Source: an uncultured Poribacteria bacterium (GTDB taxonomy: Bacteria > Poribacteria > WGA-4E > WGA-3G). From it: a stretch of DNA of 64,000 nt. Numbering within the stretch: the first letter of the stretch is position 1; every line of letters starts with the position of its first letter. Below, piece by piece: positions 2,895 through 62,201 of the stretch. Location: NCBI GenBank assembly GCA_951828515.1, contig OX639992.1, forward strand, positions 558,001 to 622,000, given 5' to 3'. Made by a program: the position numbers and the translations under genes. The notes beneath the pieces are model-generated. The model was not told the origin of the DNA, ran no database searches, and saw nothing but the letters and a program-made list of their open reading frames with translations.

Positions 2895-3482
2895 AAATTT
2901 TCCTTTTATTATTGGGTTACCAAATTTTAGGTAACCAGAATTTAGAATAATCTCATAAATATTTCGTGCAATGATCCCCTATGCCCTGCCAGCCACTTCT
3001 ACCCAAGTCCTCTTTTAGGTATTTCGCAGTTCTACCAGAGATCCTTATATTTTATGAAGACTGTTGCAAATCCGAATCAATTATTTACGAGATGGGTTGT
3101 ATTCAATGGTATCACAAATTCTGTTTTTAGGCAAGTTTTTGAGGCAAGAAAAATCAGTCATAACAAAGGTTCACGGCATTCATCATATAAACACATCATC
3201 GCATAAAACTTTGTAAGATATATGATCGGCTTGATATGATTTTTTTGAGAAATAATCGTTTATCCATAGGACTTACGCATTTTTGACCGTAGCACGTTCT
3301 GTTAGGTGGGGATACTTGAAAAAACGCAGACGGTCTTCTGACAAAAACTACGGTAAAATATACAATGACTGTAAATCAATTTCCATGCAGTACAATACCC
3401 ACCATCTCAGGGGAGTTAAAATAATAAGTAAGAATAGTCGCGGAACAGTAGCATGTAGAACGCACGATGTAACCCTCCATTC
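2895..3482. other. Intergenic region without a convincing gene
   Basis: AT-rich spacer between two genes read leftwards. The upstream part must carry the promoter of the WD40 gene, but I see no clear -35/-10 pair. The only recognisable element is a short repeat at about 3268-3349, also found near 29644. The 67-residue open frame near 3283 has no recognisable features and I do not call it a gene. Confidence 0.5.
3268..3349. repeat. Dispersed repeat, copy 1 (AGGACYTACRCA...GTAGCACG)
   Basis: About 80 bp that align with 29644-29726, sharing AGGACYTACRCA, TTTGACNGTAGCACG and GTTAGRTGNGGAT in the same order. Both copies lie in non-coding DNA. It may be the end of a decayed mobile element; no open frame is linked to it. 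Confidence 0.5.
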
Positions 3483-4532
3483 TTAATTCACTTTAATTTT
3501 TCCCCATGTTGTTGTTAAGGAATGCGCTGAAGGTGAAATCTCTAAGACGTTTGGATGAGACCAATCTGCGCCGAAATTATTTCCTTCACGCGTAAGTTGC
3601 GTTGGGTTGCCACCGTTGAAATCGGTTTTGTAAAGTTGAAAAACATCTCCTATATTATTATTGTAGATGAGTTGATTTCCTTGTGGGGACCATGTCGGAT
3701 CAAGAGCGCTACCATCGGCGACTTGTTGTAGTGCCGTGCCGTCCGGATTTGCGATGTAGAGTGTGCTGTTCCGAAACGCAACAACTCCTCGCTCATTGAA
3801 TCTCGCCCTATCAAGTTTACCGAAGGCGACCTTGTCCCCTTGTGGAGACCAGCGCGGTGAAATCGTCCAAGGCAGCTTCTCTGGACGGAGTACTTTTTGG
3901 GTGCGCGTCTGCAAATCGAAAAGTCCCAATGGGATATGTTTGAGCCCAGCTACTACAAAGATGAGTTGACTCCCATCGGGGGACCAACTCGGATCGAATC
4001 CTTTCGTTAATTTCTCAATGGAAGTCCCGTTTGGTGCAGCAATATAAAGCGTGTGTTCCGCTGTAGGTGCGAATCGGGCACCGAATGCGAGGATTGCCTT
4101 TCGTTTGTCTGCTTGTGCGTAGGCGATGTGTTTTCCATCGGGTGACCAAGCTGGTTCTCTTCTATATTCATTGTCTTTAAACACCTTCTGGACATTTTTG
4201 CCATCTGGGTTCATAAGGTACAAATCGAAGACACCATCTGTTCGATCGGAACTGAAAACTATCTGCTTTCCATTTGGTGACCAAGCTGGGTCATAGTCTT
4301 CTGCGGGGTGTTGTGTTAGGTTCACCTGTTGGCTTCCATCGGGATTCATGATATAGATTTCGGCATTGCCATCGCGTTTCGAGACGAAGACGATTTTCTC
4401 GGTCTCTGGGGCTTGTGCATATACACTGGGACTGTGACTAAACAGGAATAATGCACCGATGGTGTAGCTCAGGATGAGAAACAGGCGAACGATTTGGATA
4501 CCTGAATGTGCGAGTGTCGCTATGCCTTTCAT
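3483..4532 (-). CDS. Secreted TolB-like (PD40) beta-propeller protein with LTTTWGKIK tail
   Basis: A 349-residue protein. I take the ATG at 4532 because AAGGAGAA lies 8 nt upstream and a hydrophobic signal segment follows ([18 protein letters not shown], then YAQAPE). The longer open frame starts inside DNA that belongs to a duplicated, truncated neighbour gene. The mature part consists of PD40/TolB-type repeats ('[20 protein letters not shown]', '[12 protein letters not shown]'), predicted to form a six- or seven-bladed propeller. The C-terminus [12 protein letters not shown] carries the tag shared with five other TolB-like and four LamG proteins in the window. It reads away from the peptide locus. 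No enzymatic role is visible. Confidence 0.85.
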
Positions 4533-5029: not shown

Positions 5030-6450
5030 TTGTTTGATTTTCCAAAAACTTTGCACCAACTGCATCTCTTTGAGGCGGATGGTGTCCTTTATGCGGCAGA
5101 CATTGAGAAAGTACGCGTCGTTGAGATTTCTGCCGTGATGGCGGACATTTTAGAACTGGCAGAGACGCAAACGAACGAGGAAATCGTCCAGGCGCTAAAG
5201 TCCTCTTATATAAAGGACGACATTCTTGAAGCATTTGAGAGATTCGAGGAACTCGAAAAGGAAGGTTTACTATTCAATCGGGGTGAAAGTCTCACAGAAA
5301 CCCTCGCGTTAGAAAGTGAGCGTCGAAAGTTGCTTGTTGCGATACCGGGAATTTCGGTAGATTCGTTTTTTGATATTGAAACGTTGTATGCCGGGACCAA
5401 CATGGCACTCTCTTACATGTTTCAACATCTCACCGAATATGTAGATCTCCACTTTGCTGGCAACCAAAATCGAAAGTTAGCCGATAACGTCTATGAAGTC
5501 GATATCAGCGTGACTGATTTCGGCAGACTGAGCCGAAGCATCAACGAAACCTATTTCGGCATTCTCACGCTACATCGCGACCACGAAACGTGGCTCCTTC
5601 CGCTTTATCAGTATACGGAACTGCCCCCGATGCTTGTGCAATGCCATGCACCACGTGGACACGGTGGAAAGGCACTCAATTCTATGCTGCGGCATTACGC
5701 GGCGATGCGGGATTATGATGCCTTCACCGCGCCATCGGATTACGTTCGTGAATTCTATGCAGATTACGTCTGGGATACCAGCTTCTTCAACACCCTACCC
5801 AACGGCGTGGATTCAGCGTTGTTCTGTCCAATGGACAAAGAAAATCGGTTTAACAGTCCTCGAAGCGATGGCGTGCGGCGTTCCGCCTATCGTTCCCGAC
5901 TTTGATGGTGTGCCTTCAGTCGTTGGAGATGCTGGCTTGATTGCTGATGCCGATAATTTCAACAACGATATAGGAACACTCGTGAGTTATCCATCGCCAG
6001 TAGACTTCTCAGAAAAGATTAACTTGCTATTGAACGATGATGAAATGCGGGAAGCACTTTCCCAAAAAGCGAGAGCACGCGCGCTGTCTTTCACTTGGGA
6101 CAAAACAGCGCCGCATTATCCGATTTTTTGAGGAACTCCATCAAAAACGGCAACTCGTTAGTCCAAACGGACTTTTGAATGTCTTTGCGACCGAAATTGA
6201 AGCATCGAATCCAGAGCAACGGTATCTCAGATATAAGTCCATTCTATTGGGTATGAATAACCACTATGAACGTTCTCTGATGGGAGATGCCCTCTATTCT
6301 CAGCGTGTTGAAGAGGGGCTTGTGATGACGCTCTTGAAAAACCATACTGTCAGAGAAGCGGAGGCACTCCTTGCTGGATTCATCGAAGATGAAACAGAAG
6401 CAAAGGCGATTCTCAAAAGGGTTCAAGGCTTAATCCATGCAACCGCTTAA
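5030..6450 (+). pseudogene. PqqD-like-domain glycosyltransferase GT-A, copy 1, broken by a deletion and a frameshift
   Basis: The start is TTG 5030 behind GGAAAGG, as in copy 2. Residues 1-85 form a PqqD/RRE-like domain (LFEADGVLYAADIEKVRVVEI ... LEKEGLLFNRG). A GT-B-fold glycosyltransferase follows. Compared with the copy at 19817, about 290 bp are missing at position ~5842, just after the codons for CPMDKE. This removes the first part of the nucleotide-sugar-binding half and shifts the frame. The signature LEAMACGVPPIVPDFDGVPSVVG continues in another frame. A second frameshift at ~6107 (two bases missing in GCG[CG]CCGC) puts the last ~110 codons in a third frame. The product of this copy is very unlikely to be active. 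Confidence 0.85.
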
Positions 6451-6457
6451 ATAACCT

Positions 6458-6602
6458 AAGTTGCCACCTATCTATAGACATAGCACCCCTACGGGGTGCG
6501 GTTGCTTAAATACGCCGTTTTCTATAGACATAGCACCCCTACGGGGTGGAGAAGCACCTGAACAATCCTCTTAAAATGTTCAAAACTCGTCAGTGGCAAC
6601 TT
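6458..6602. mobile_element. MITE-like element, AAGTTGCYAC family, copy 1
   Basis: A 145-bp element bounded by the perfect 10-bp inverted repeat AAGTTGCCAC ... GTGGCAACTT. Inside are two direct copies of CTATAGACATAGCACCCCTA followed by CGGGGTG; CACCCCTACGGGGTG is itself palindromic. Other copies lie at 21538-21682 (identical, within the duplicated segment) and at 61622-61767 (diverged). It has no coding capacity. Confidence 0.7.
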
Positions 6603-6606
6603 GGCT

Positions 6607-6741
6607 CATAGTAAGTCTAAGAATTAATGAGACACTCTTCAGCAGGCGAAGGGACCTTGAAGAAACACCAAGCAAAAACCCCGTACGACAGAGGCACTCT
6701 GATATTGTTAAAATGTATTTTTAATTCTAAGTTCTACTATA
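6607..6741. mobile_element. MITE-like element, TATAGTA...ATTAA family, upstream of GT-B copy 1
   Basis: A 135-bp element with imperfect terminal inverted repeats of about 21 bp: CATAGTAAGTCTAAGAATTAA at the left, TTAATTCTAAGTTCTACTATA at the right. Other copies are at 21687-21821 and 27849-28005. All three end 17-21 bp before a start codon, so the element's right end forms the 5' leader of the following gene and may supply its promoter. Confidence 0.55.
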
Positions 6742-21211: not shown

Positions 21212-21530
21212 GGAACTCCATCAAAAACGGCAACTCGTTAGTCCAAACGGACTTTTGAATGTCTTTGCGACCGAAATTGAAGCATCGAATCCAGAGCAAC
21301 GGTATCTCAGATATAAGTCCATTCTATTGGGTATGAATAACCACTATGAACGTTCTCTGATGGGAGATGCCCTCTATTCTCAGCGTGTTGAAGAGGGGCT
21401 TGTGATGACGCTCTTGAAAAACCATACTGTCAGAGAAGCGGAGGCACTCCTTGCTGGATTCATCGAAGATGAAACAGAAGCAAAGGCGATTCTCAAAAGG
21501 GTTCAAGGCTTAATCCATGCAACCGCTTAA
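21188..21530 (+). pseudogene. Out-of-frame C-terminal part of GT-A copy 2
   Basis: About 112 codons, beginning RRIIRFFEELHQ and ending VQGLIHATA, that restore the normal C-terminus if two bases are added near 21187. This region is nearly or fully identical to 6108-6450. The tail ends in helices resembling the C-terminal part of GT-B, which lie just before the peptide leader there. Confidence 0.7.
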
Positions 21531-21537
21531 ATAACCT

Positions 21538-21682
21538 AAGTTGCCACCTATCTATAGACATAGCACCCCTACGGGGTGCGGTTGCTTAAATACGCCGTTT
21601 TCTATAGACATAGCACCCCTACGGGGTGGAGAAGCACCTGAACAATCCTCTTAAAATGTTCAAAACTCGTCAGTGGCAACTT
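21538..21682. mobile_element. MITE-like element, AAGTTGCYAC family, copy 2
   Basis: Identical as far as I can read to 6458-6602 (AAGTTGCCAC ... GTGGCAACTT, two internal ATAGACATAGCACCCC units). It was copied as part of the segmental duplication. Confidence 0.7.
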
Positions 21683-21686
21683 GGCT

Positions 21687-21821
21687 CATAGTAAGTCTAA
21701 GAATTAATGAGACACTCTTCAGCAGGCGAAGGGACCTTGAAGAAACACCAAGCAAAAACCCCGTACGACAGAGGCACTCTGATATTGTTAAAATGTATTT
21801 TTAATTCTAAGTTCTACTATA
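21687..21821. mobile_element. MITE-like element, TATAGTA...ATTAA family, upstream of GT-B copy 2
   Basis: Same 135-bp element as 6607-6741, with ends CATAGTAAGTCTAAGAATTAA and TTAATTCTAAGTTCTACTATA. It ends 21 bp before the GT-B start. Confidence 0.55.
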
Positions 21822-61146: not shown

Positions 61147-61533
61147 ATGCATATTGTAAGATTATCGCTAATTTGTCTTATCGCCTTTGCATTCATGGTG
61201 GGTTGTGGGATGCTCGGGAAACAGGCAGAGATGTCTGAATCCACTGTCGAGGAAACCGCAATGGAATCCGACATGAAAGGCGGAGACACGGCAGAAGCCA
61301 TGGAGGAAGCCGCCATTGAAGAGATAACACTGAATGTTACAGGGATGACATGAGGCGCGTGTACCAGCAAGGTGCAGGATGCACTCAGTAAAGTCACCGG
61401 TGTCTCTGAAGTGGTGAGCGTCTCTGACGCGGATAACACAGCTGTTGTGAAAGTTGAGAAAGGCAAAGTTAAGACTGCCGATCTCACGACTGCAGTTCAA
61501 GGCGCAGGCTTCAGTGCCGAAGTCGCCCAATAA
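61147..61533 (+). CDS. HMA-domain lipoprotein with selenocysteine (UGA codon 69)
   Basis: 128 residues read through TGA 61351-61353. Lipoprotein signal LICLIAFAFMVGC, an acidic linker (SESTVEETAMESDMKGGDTA), then a heavy-metal-associated fold: ITLNVTGMT-U-GACTSKVQDA, VTGVSEVVSVSDADNTAVVK, and VQGAGFSAEVAQ. HMA domains have GMTCxxC for binding copper, mercury or similar; here the first Cys is encoded as UGA and the second is kept, with the rest of the domain intact in frame. AGGAGGTTAACCC precedes the ATG. A SECIS-like hairpin follows the UGA. A close paralogue with the same feature is at 61857. Confidence 0.88.
61371..61385 (+). promoter_or_regulatory. SECIS-like hairpin of HMA selenoprotein 1
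   Basis: GGTGCA-GGA-TGCACT forms a six-pair stem (one G-U) with loop GGA. The loop starts 23 nt after the UGA. It lies within the coding region, as bacterial SECIS elements do. Confidence 0.7.
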
Positions 61534-61621
61534 GGCTGAATCGGAGGAGGGTGGGGTTCCCCACCCTTTCTCTATATGAACAGGTTGCAAACTATAATTC
61601 TCTTGCAGCCTTGATTAACGC

Positions 61622-61767
61622 AAGTTGCTACCTTATTTATAGACATAGCACTCCGCTGGAGTGCAGTATTTTGACGGCACGGTTTTCTATAGACATACCA
61701 CCCCTACGGGGTGTAGAAGGGGTCTGGAAAGTTTGTTGAAATGTTCAAAATTTGTGAGTAGCAACTT
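61622..61767. mobile_element. MITE-like element, AAGTTGCYAC family, copy 3
   Basis: A 146-bp diverged copy with ends AAGTTGCTAC and GTAGCAACTT. The change from CC to CT at one end is matched at the other, so the terminal repeat remains perfect. It lies between the two HMA genes and includes TATAGACATACCACCCCTAC. Confidence 0.7.
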
Positions 61768-61856
61768 GGGTTTAATTAGATAAAGTTATAACCATTAGAA
61801 CTAAAGCCGAAAAGGTGCGATCGAGAGGTCGCCCTACCAATAAGGGGTATAAACTT

Positions 61857-62201
61857 ATGCGTCAGTTAAACGCGAGGATGCTATTCGTCTGCTTTGCAGC
61901 ACTGCTGTTTGTGTTCGCGTGTGCAGACACCGGAAAGAAAGAGGCAGAAGAAGCAGCACCAGCACAGACGGCAGAGGCAACTGTTGAGGAAGTGACACTA
62001 ACTGTAACCGGTATGACATGAGGTGCGTGTACCAGCAAGGTGCAGGATGCACTTACGAAAGTTACTGGGGTCTCTGAAGTTGTCAGTGTTTCTATGGAAG
62101 AGAATAAAGCTGTGGTGAAAGTTGAAAAGGACAAGGTTGAGAACGACACGCTCGTGAAGGCGGTTACAGACGTAGGTTTCAGCGCGCAAGTCGCCAATTA
62201 A
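61857..62201 (+). CDS. HMA-domain lipoprotein with selenocysteine (UGA codon 55), second copy
   Basis: 114 residues from ATG 61857 (AAGGGGT 8 nt upstream), read through TGA 62019-62021. Lipobox LLFVFAC; a short acidic linker; then VTLTVTGMT-U-GACTSKVQDA, VTGVSEVVSVSMEENKAVVK, and VTDVGFSAQVAN. The signal peptide and linker differ from those of the paralogue, while the HMA domain, the UGA and the SECIS-like hairpin are conserved. This conservation at a single codon argues against an accidental stop. Confidence 0.88.
62039..62053 (+). promoter_or_regulatory. SECIS-like hairpin of HMA selenoprotein 2
   Basis: GGTGCA-GGA-TGCACT, identical to the hairpin in the first HMA gene, with the loop again 23 nt after the UGA. 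Confidence 0.7.

Follow-up and report, generated by a model that had tools for sequence, protein, structure and literature searches.

Tandem Poribacteria lipoproteins with a predicted selenocysteine at the metal-binding site of an HMA domain

Two neighbouring genes of an uncultured Poribacteria bacterium, lying in the 64,000-nt stretch of DNA analysed here (the window), carry an in-frame TGA exactly where an HMA domain should have the first cysteine of its metal-binding CxxC motif. This arrangement raises the question of whether the codon is a stop or is read as selenocysteine (Sec) and, in the latter case, what a selenium-containing metal site would do in an exported protein.

Two lipoprotein genes with an in-frame UGA

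The original prediction, made from the letters of the window, placed two adjacent HMA lipoprotein genes at 61147-62201, with TGA at the first position of the CxxC in both copies. Both the coordinates and the codons proved right (Table 1), and each gene encodes one HMA domain and one lipobox. A single TGA is found in frame in each ORF, in the context GMT-UGA-GAC, and the C-terminal HMA domain (PF00403) spans it, scoring 39.7 bits in ORF1 (E 6e-10) and 40.7 bits in ORF2 (E 3e-10) in Pfam, where the cut-off is 24.8. In the ORF1 product the signal peptide MHIVRLSLICLIAFAFMVG, after which C is the next residue, is followed by an acidic linker and then by the HMA domain; that of ORF2 has the same order of signal peptide, linker and domain, and the linkers of the two read-through products are acidic/Thr-rich. 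The lipobox, MVGC in ORF1 and VFAC in ORF2, stands after a hydrophobic stretch and is retained in most orthologues according to a simple motif scan. Translation of ORF1 starts at ATG 61147, with AGGAGG upstream. For ORF2 a longer mechanical call begins at GTG 61815, and the start is most plausibly ATG 61857, judging from an upstream AAGGGG and from the N-termini of the orthologues. The DNA of the two genes is 75% identical over a 224-nt stretch covering the HMA domain.

A MITE-like element, whose two inner repeat units sit 50 nt apart, lies between the genes. The distance from UGA to UGA is 668 nt in the window versus 508 in the nearest relative because a copy of this element has inserted there, and the insertion is dispensable for the pair. 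The window holds three copies of the element (61617-61772, about 6450-6620 and about 21530-21700), two of which are nearly identical.

Table 1. Coordinates of the predicted Sec-HMA genes and of the features associated with them (window positions unless a locus is named)
Feature	Position	Strand	Description
ORF1, Sec-containing lipoprotein	61147..61533	+	128 aa with TGA read as U; Sec at codon 69
UGA (Sec) codon 1	61351..61353	+	first position of the U-x-x-C metal site; Cys in orthologous domains
SECIS-like hairpin 1	61372..61384	+	GUGCA GGA UGCAC; outer A/G-U pair 61371/61385; from pair counts, resampling and Cys-domain contrast
MITE-like insertion	61617..61772		156 bp, between ORF1 and ORF2; 15-nt terminal inverted repeats; two inner 'TATAGACATA'+palindrome units
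ORF2, Sec-containing lipoprotein	61857..62201	+	about 114 aa; Sec at codon 55
UGA (Sec) codon 2	62019..62021	+	in ORF2; GMT-UGA-GAC context
SECIS-like hairpin 2	62040..62052	+	core as in hairpin 1; from pair counts, resampling and Cys-domain contrast
Third Sec-HMA gene	L022:2640-4238 (genome C1:2016139-2017737)		signal peptide + PSCyt1 + WD40 + HMA
Exported poly-HMA proteins	L181:2847-4073, L182:2847-3839, L183:2565-3599, L184:3011-4162	+	3-4 Sec and 1-2 Cys domains
Exported poly-HMA protein	L180, about 3322-4518	minus	3-4 Sec and 1-2 Cys domains

Decoding of the UGA

The host genome, a single contig of 5.85 Mb, contains a complete Sec-decoding set, formed by SelA (594 bits), SelB (347 bits), the tRNA-Sec (78 bits) whose gene adjoins that of SelB, and SelD (359 bits). 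The last of these (L177:1501-2424) carries a UGA of its own at the known Sec/Cys site (KCAG-U-ASK) and is thus a predicted selenoprotein too. SelA is present in 72 of the 85 genomes of the phylum. Genome-wide reassignment of UGA can be ruled out, since this codon is the ordinary stop for 8 of 36 long ORFs in the window.

Every one of the 59 genomes of the taxonomic family has a match to the domain, as do 76 of 85 in the phylum; among the family matches listed, nearly all have exactly one TGA at this codon. G058 is of the same genus as the window genome and G003 of the same family. After removal of duplicates the set comprised 127 domains (113 UxxC, 1 UxxU and 13 CxxC), in which the in-frame UGA of the UxxC forms aligns with Cys in the CxxC ones. 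The search for Cys homologues proposed with the original prediction was therefore productive, and it also returned the full-length Cys orthologues described below. Of the two outcomes that had been named as fatal to the prediction neither occurred: the homologues in the relatives listed run on past the UGA rather than stopping there, and the Sec machinery is in place. The purifying selection noticed past the TGA is likewise borne out, with median pairwise dN/dS values of 0.12 for 17 copy-2 genes, 0.18 for 19 copy-1 genes and 0.11 for 14 WD40 fusions, the other two frames giving pN/pS values of 1.05-1.66.

One relative, G036 (96% complete, SelA not found), has a copy 2 (L186, minus strand, C111:8998-9165) from which an in-frame deletion has removed the metal site TGMTUGACTS and nothing else, so that the frame is open and contains no UGA; copy 1 of this genome still has the UGA. 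When the genome collection was scanned for the GMTUGA pattern, most of the matches listed were due to chance, and those resembling HMA domains came from Poribacteria, from one deltaproteobacterial UxxU protein (L055) and from one unclassified sequence at a contig end (L058). The short translated stretch 'GMTUGAVFQRS' occurs many times in Syntrophaceae UBA4767 contigs (L034, L042, L065, L079, L080, L095, L100, L101 and L130), where it looks like a dispersed DNA repeat with an accidental likeness to the motif.

ORF1 and ORF2 share the hairpin GGTGCAGGATGCACT letter for letter; its apical loop begins 23 nt past the TGA, as had been described. Numbering from the T of TGA as 0, GUGCA at 21-25 pairs with UGCAC at 29-33, and the loop (26-28) has G first. 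All five pairs are kept in 100 of 107 distinct Sec domains, the other seven being without the innermost pair only, as against 1 of 12 Cys domains and 7% (maximum 14%) after synonymous codon resampling with local codon usage in 200 runs. Synonymous sites bear out the conservation of the hairpin: codon +10 reads GCA or GTA, with A as third base, in 113 of 113 domains, GCA making up 33% of the Ala codons in the window, and the third-position entropy of codons +7, +8 and +10 is 0.07, 0 and 0 bits, whereas most of the remaining codons have about 1-2 bits. Furthermore, pairs have changed on both sides, 23-31 from G-C to A-U (L220) and 25-29 from A-U to G-C (L214, L215), and wobble intermediates are found in L221 and L201. 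The 5.85-Mb genome has exactly three instances of a UGA followed by TGY and this hairpin, in the window pair and in one further homologue, against none for the reversed control, so that chance is excluded.

The bSECIS consensus describes an apical loop of 3-9 nt, a stem of 4-16 bp, a G in the first two loop positions and a distance of 16-37 nt from the UGA, with a minimum free energy of -7.5 kcal/mol or lower (PMC13188914). The geometry agrees with it, the loop being of 3 nt and starting with G26 (113 of 113), the stem of 5-6 bp and the spacing of 23 nt. The energy is borderline: the window copies give -7.0 and -7.1 kcal/mol in a local window, 17 of 113 domains reach -7.5 in a 20-nt window, and longer windows fold at -13 but partly with other pairing. 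Folded singly over +3..+44, both window copies favour a different, longer pairing, the hairpin being dominant only in shorter windows, and the SECIS case rests for this reason on the comparison between sequences. Rfam gave no match to a SECIS family.

Taking together the Sec machinery, the conservation of the UGA, the selection past it, the hairpin and the full-length Cys orthologues, we hold it to be nearly certain that ORF1 and ORF2 are true selenoproteins, with Sec predicted as the first metal ligand of the HMA domain; following known bacterial biology, the SelB-GTP-Sec-tRNASec complex would bind the hairpin and deliver Sec at the UGA. Decoding of the UGA as some other amino acid, by near-cognate insertion of Trp or Cys or by unprogrammed read-through, and so with no part played by selenium, could appeal to the modest energies in single-sequence folding and to the fact that Sec is read from sequence. 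It is nevertheless very improbable in a genome with complete Sec machinery and a SelD of the Sec type, where other ORFs of the window end normally at UGA, where the exchange is specifically between UGA and Cys at a metal ligand, and where the hairpin persists in domains with UGA but is degraded in those with Cys, even within the same proteins. We give practically no credence to the view that the UGAs are ordinary stops, leaving short lipopeptides and a decaying HMA remnant downstream: the standard code does end both ORFs at this codon, and the lost metal site of copy 2 in G036, where SelA was not found, can be cited for it, but a dN/dS of 0.11-0.18 past the UGA and a frame that is open through the whole domain in 113 UxxC copies rule out pseudogenes.

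Related Sec-HMA genes in the genome and the phylum

Although the coordinates given for the pair stood, the feature is not confined to it, as a third Sec-HMA gene lies elsewhere in the genome and relatives have versions with several Sec. The third gene joins a planctomycete-type cytochrome c domain (PSCyt1) and a WD40 propeller to an HMA domain with the same GMT-UGA-GAC, and is conserved in relatives. Three genomes of another family in the same order have orthologues of this fusion with Cys (L210, L211, L212), 59-61% identical over almost the entire length; by sequence comparison, these are the Sec/Cys pairs normally demanded for calling a selenoprotein. Five HMA proteins score above the Pfam cut-off in the host genome: all three exported ones have Sec, and Cys is found in the CopZ-like protein of the cytosol (L023) and in the P1B-type ATPase with a CPC motif (L229). 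This rule is not absolute in relatives, where the last domains of the poly-HMA proteins and some WD40 fusions have Cys.

The exported poly-HMA proteins of relatives combine Sec and Cys domains in one chain, which offers a natural internal control for SECIS function. The protein of G051 has five HMA domains, the first four with Sec and the last with Cys; those of G022, G046 and G002 have three Sec and one Cys each, and that of G003 has three Sec and two Cys. The repeats are up to 98% identical in DNA, the figure reached by domains 2 and 3 of the four-Sec gene of G051, and a short-read artefact is unlikely in G002 and G003 because their contigs are long (5.0 and 5.5 Mb). A 2026 review covering 119 families and subfamilies of prokaryotic selenoproteins gives one Sec for almost all of them and 2-3 for a small subset (PMC13188914), a range that these arrays, with 3-4 predicted Sec, would surpass in the four-Sec protein, whose nearly identical domains make the count provisional.

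In G022, G046, G051 and G002 the poly-HMA gene is located at or beside the locus of the window pair, near UvrC-like and/or PhyH genes. A UvrC-like GIY-YIG gene and PhyH dioxygenases are also the only constant neighbours of the pair; no conserved metal-transport gene was found among the neighbourhoods compared, and a function could therefore not be drawn from them. A mer operon was ruled out by the absence of MerT from the host genome and of any MerA match above the cut-off, the MerA-like hits all scoring lower. In G003 and in one genus the pair is followed directly, on the same strand, by a member of an unannotated family of about 400 aa (cluster 12; L199:6445-7716 and seven other loci) with no Pfam or NCBIfam match, a possible partner. 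In G063, where SelA was not found, a gene near that of a Fur-family regulator (L213:2188-2886) encodes an exported protein of 232 aa in which a Cys-rich segment (SCCINPTCDFC...CPCG...CPEC) precedes a Cys-type HMA domain.

Predicted role and relation to known systems

The AlphaFold model shows a beta-alpha-beta-beta-alpha-beta fold, and its pLDDT exceeds 90 over most of the HMA domain. Its best match among solved structures is oxidised MerP (1osd; TM 0.92 by target length, 42% identity), and the relatives of the domain with a solved structure are Cu/Hg binders. We propose that, once exported, the Sec-HMA protein would receive a lipid at the Cys of the lipobox and be tethered outside the cytoplasm, a flexible linker carrying the domain; there a selenolate/thiolate pair may bind a soft thiophilic ion, most likely Cu(I) or Hg(II), in two-coordinate geometry. 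The bound metal could be buffered or sequestered there or handed to a partner, and Sec would raise the affinity for soft metals and let the site stay ionised when the pH is low. Cu is favoured because CopZ and a Cu-type P1B ATPase are present, and Hg because of the similarity to MerP; it is the fold and the motif that suggest one metal or the other. Arrays with 3-4 Sec would be more in keeping with a sink or buffer than with a chaperone that works one-to-one.

Binding of soft metals outside the cytoplasm is, in our judgement, the probable function of these proteins. A different use of the same selenoproteins, with U-x-x-C as an extracytoplasmic redox pair (a selenenylsulfide oxidoreductase) that exchanges electrons with the cytochrome c-like fusion, finds support in the predominance of UxxC redox proteins among predicted bacterial selenoproteins (PMC1088965), in the union of PSCyt1, WD40 and HMA(U) in the third gene, and in an oxidising compartment. 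However, the clear HMA fold, with solved relatives that bind Cu or Hg, the retention of the GMT-UxxC motif together with the surrounding HMA positions, and domain repeats that look like the metal-binding arrays of Cu ATPases all speak against it. HMA domains are not known as oxidoreductases, and we regard this alternative as unlikely, though deserving attention. That the Sec domains, above all in arrays, store or carry selenium, banking it or handing it over as animal selenoprotein P does, would agree with several Sec per exported protein in relatives and with a domain number that differs among species; it is quite improbable, since every Sec keeps the exact context of an HMA metal site and its partner Cys, neither of which a store would need, and the last domain or domains of the arrays have only Cys.

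As the original prediction stated, Sec in HMA domains is already known. A survey of GOS environmental sequences listed a Sec form of MerP and a UxxC P-type ATPase selenoprotein (PMC2398784), and a UxxU metal-binding (seleno)protein, NF041115 (PMC13188914), is listed as 'putative mercuric reductase' of the Olavius algarvensis delta symbiont (PMC9312934, PMC13188914). NF041115 is likewise a selenoprotein that has one HMA domain as its scaffold and Sec in its metal site, and is the best NCBIfam match of ORF2 (61.2 bits) and the second-best of ORF1 (48.7 bits), both below its 95-bit cut-off; it differs in having two Sec where ORF1 and ORF2 have one Sec and a Cys, and its description as retrieved has no lipoprotein form, tandem pair, WD40/cytochrome fusion or poly-Sec array. 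MerP (TIGR02052; 45.8 bits for ORF1 and 48.2 for ORF2, cut-off 92.55) shares the exported single HMA domain and, through 1osd, the closest solved fold; it is however soluble, whereas ORF1 and ORF2 are lipoproteins in a genome without MerT and without a MerA match above the cut-off. The MerT/CopZ fusion-like heavy metal transport selenoprotein NF045683 also has an HMA domain and a link to metals, but its MerT membrane part is missing here and the scores of 39.6 (ORF1) and 45.1 bits (ORF2), for a cut-off of 375, reflect the domain only. Both proteins fall below the cut-off of every NCBIfam family matched. The UxxC P-type ATPase (PMC2398784, PMC13188914) has the same U-x-x-C motif within a transport ATPase, in contrast to the stand-alone exported lipoproteins described here, and the ATPase of the host has Cys. 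The multi-HMA N-termini of ATP7B/ATP7A resemble the poly-HMA proteins as tandem arrays in a single chain, yet they are cytosolic, Cys-only and ATPase-linked, whereas the Poribacteria arrays are exported, contain Sec and have no ATPase. Within the literature and libraries searched, where no paper on Poribacteria selenoproteins was found, the lipoprotein form, the conserved tandem pair, the cytochrome/WD40 fusion, the 3-4-Sec arrays and the family-wide fixation appear as new.

Standard annotation would cut genes of this type at the UGA, and the annotation of the Sec-HMA proteins in Poribacteria genomes is for that reason probably wrong. Redox catalysis is the usual explanation for Sec; in this case Sec is kept family-wide in a non-enzymatic metal-binding fold, and since the cytosolic HMA proteins of the same genome keep Cys, this is a testable case for Sec as an extracytoplasmic metal ligand. 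We put forward, as a tentative proposal on which we lean slightly to the sceptical side, that Poribacteria hold an exported and expandable selenium-based sink, made of lipoproteins and of poly-HMA arrays in which one chain has as many as four Sec-Cys sites, and that this sink would trap a soft metal such as Hg(II) or Cu(I) outside the membrane. Such a sink, if true, would represent a selenoprotein class defined by metal sequestration and not by catalysis, and its arrays would hold more Sec per chain than the prokaryotic 2-3 of the 2026 review (PMC13188914).
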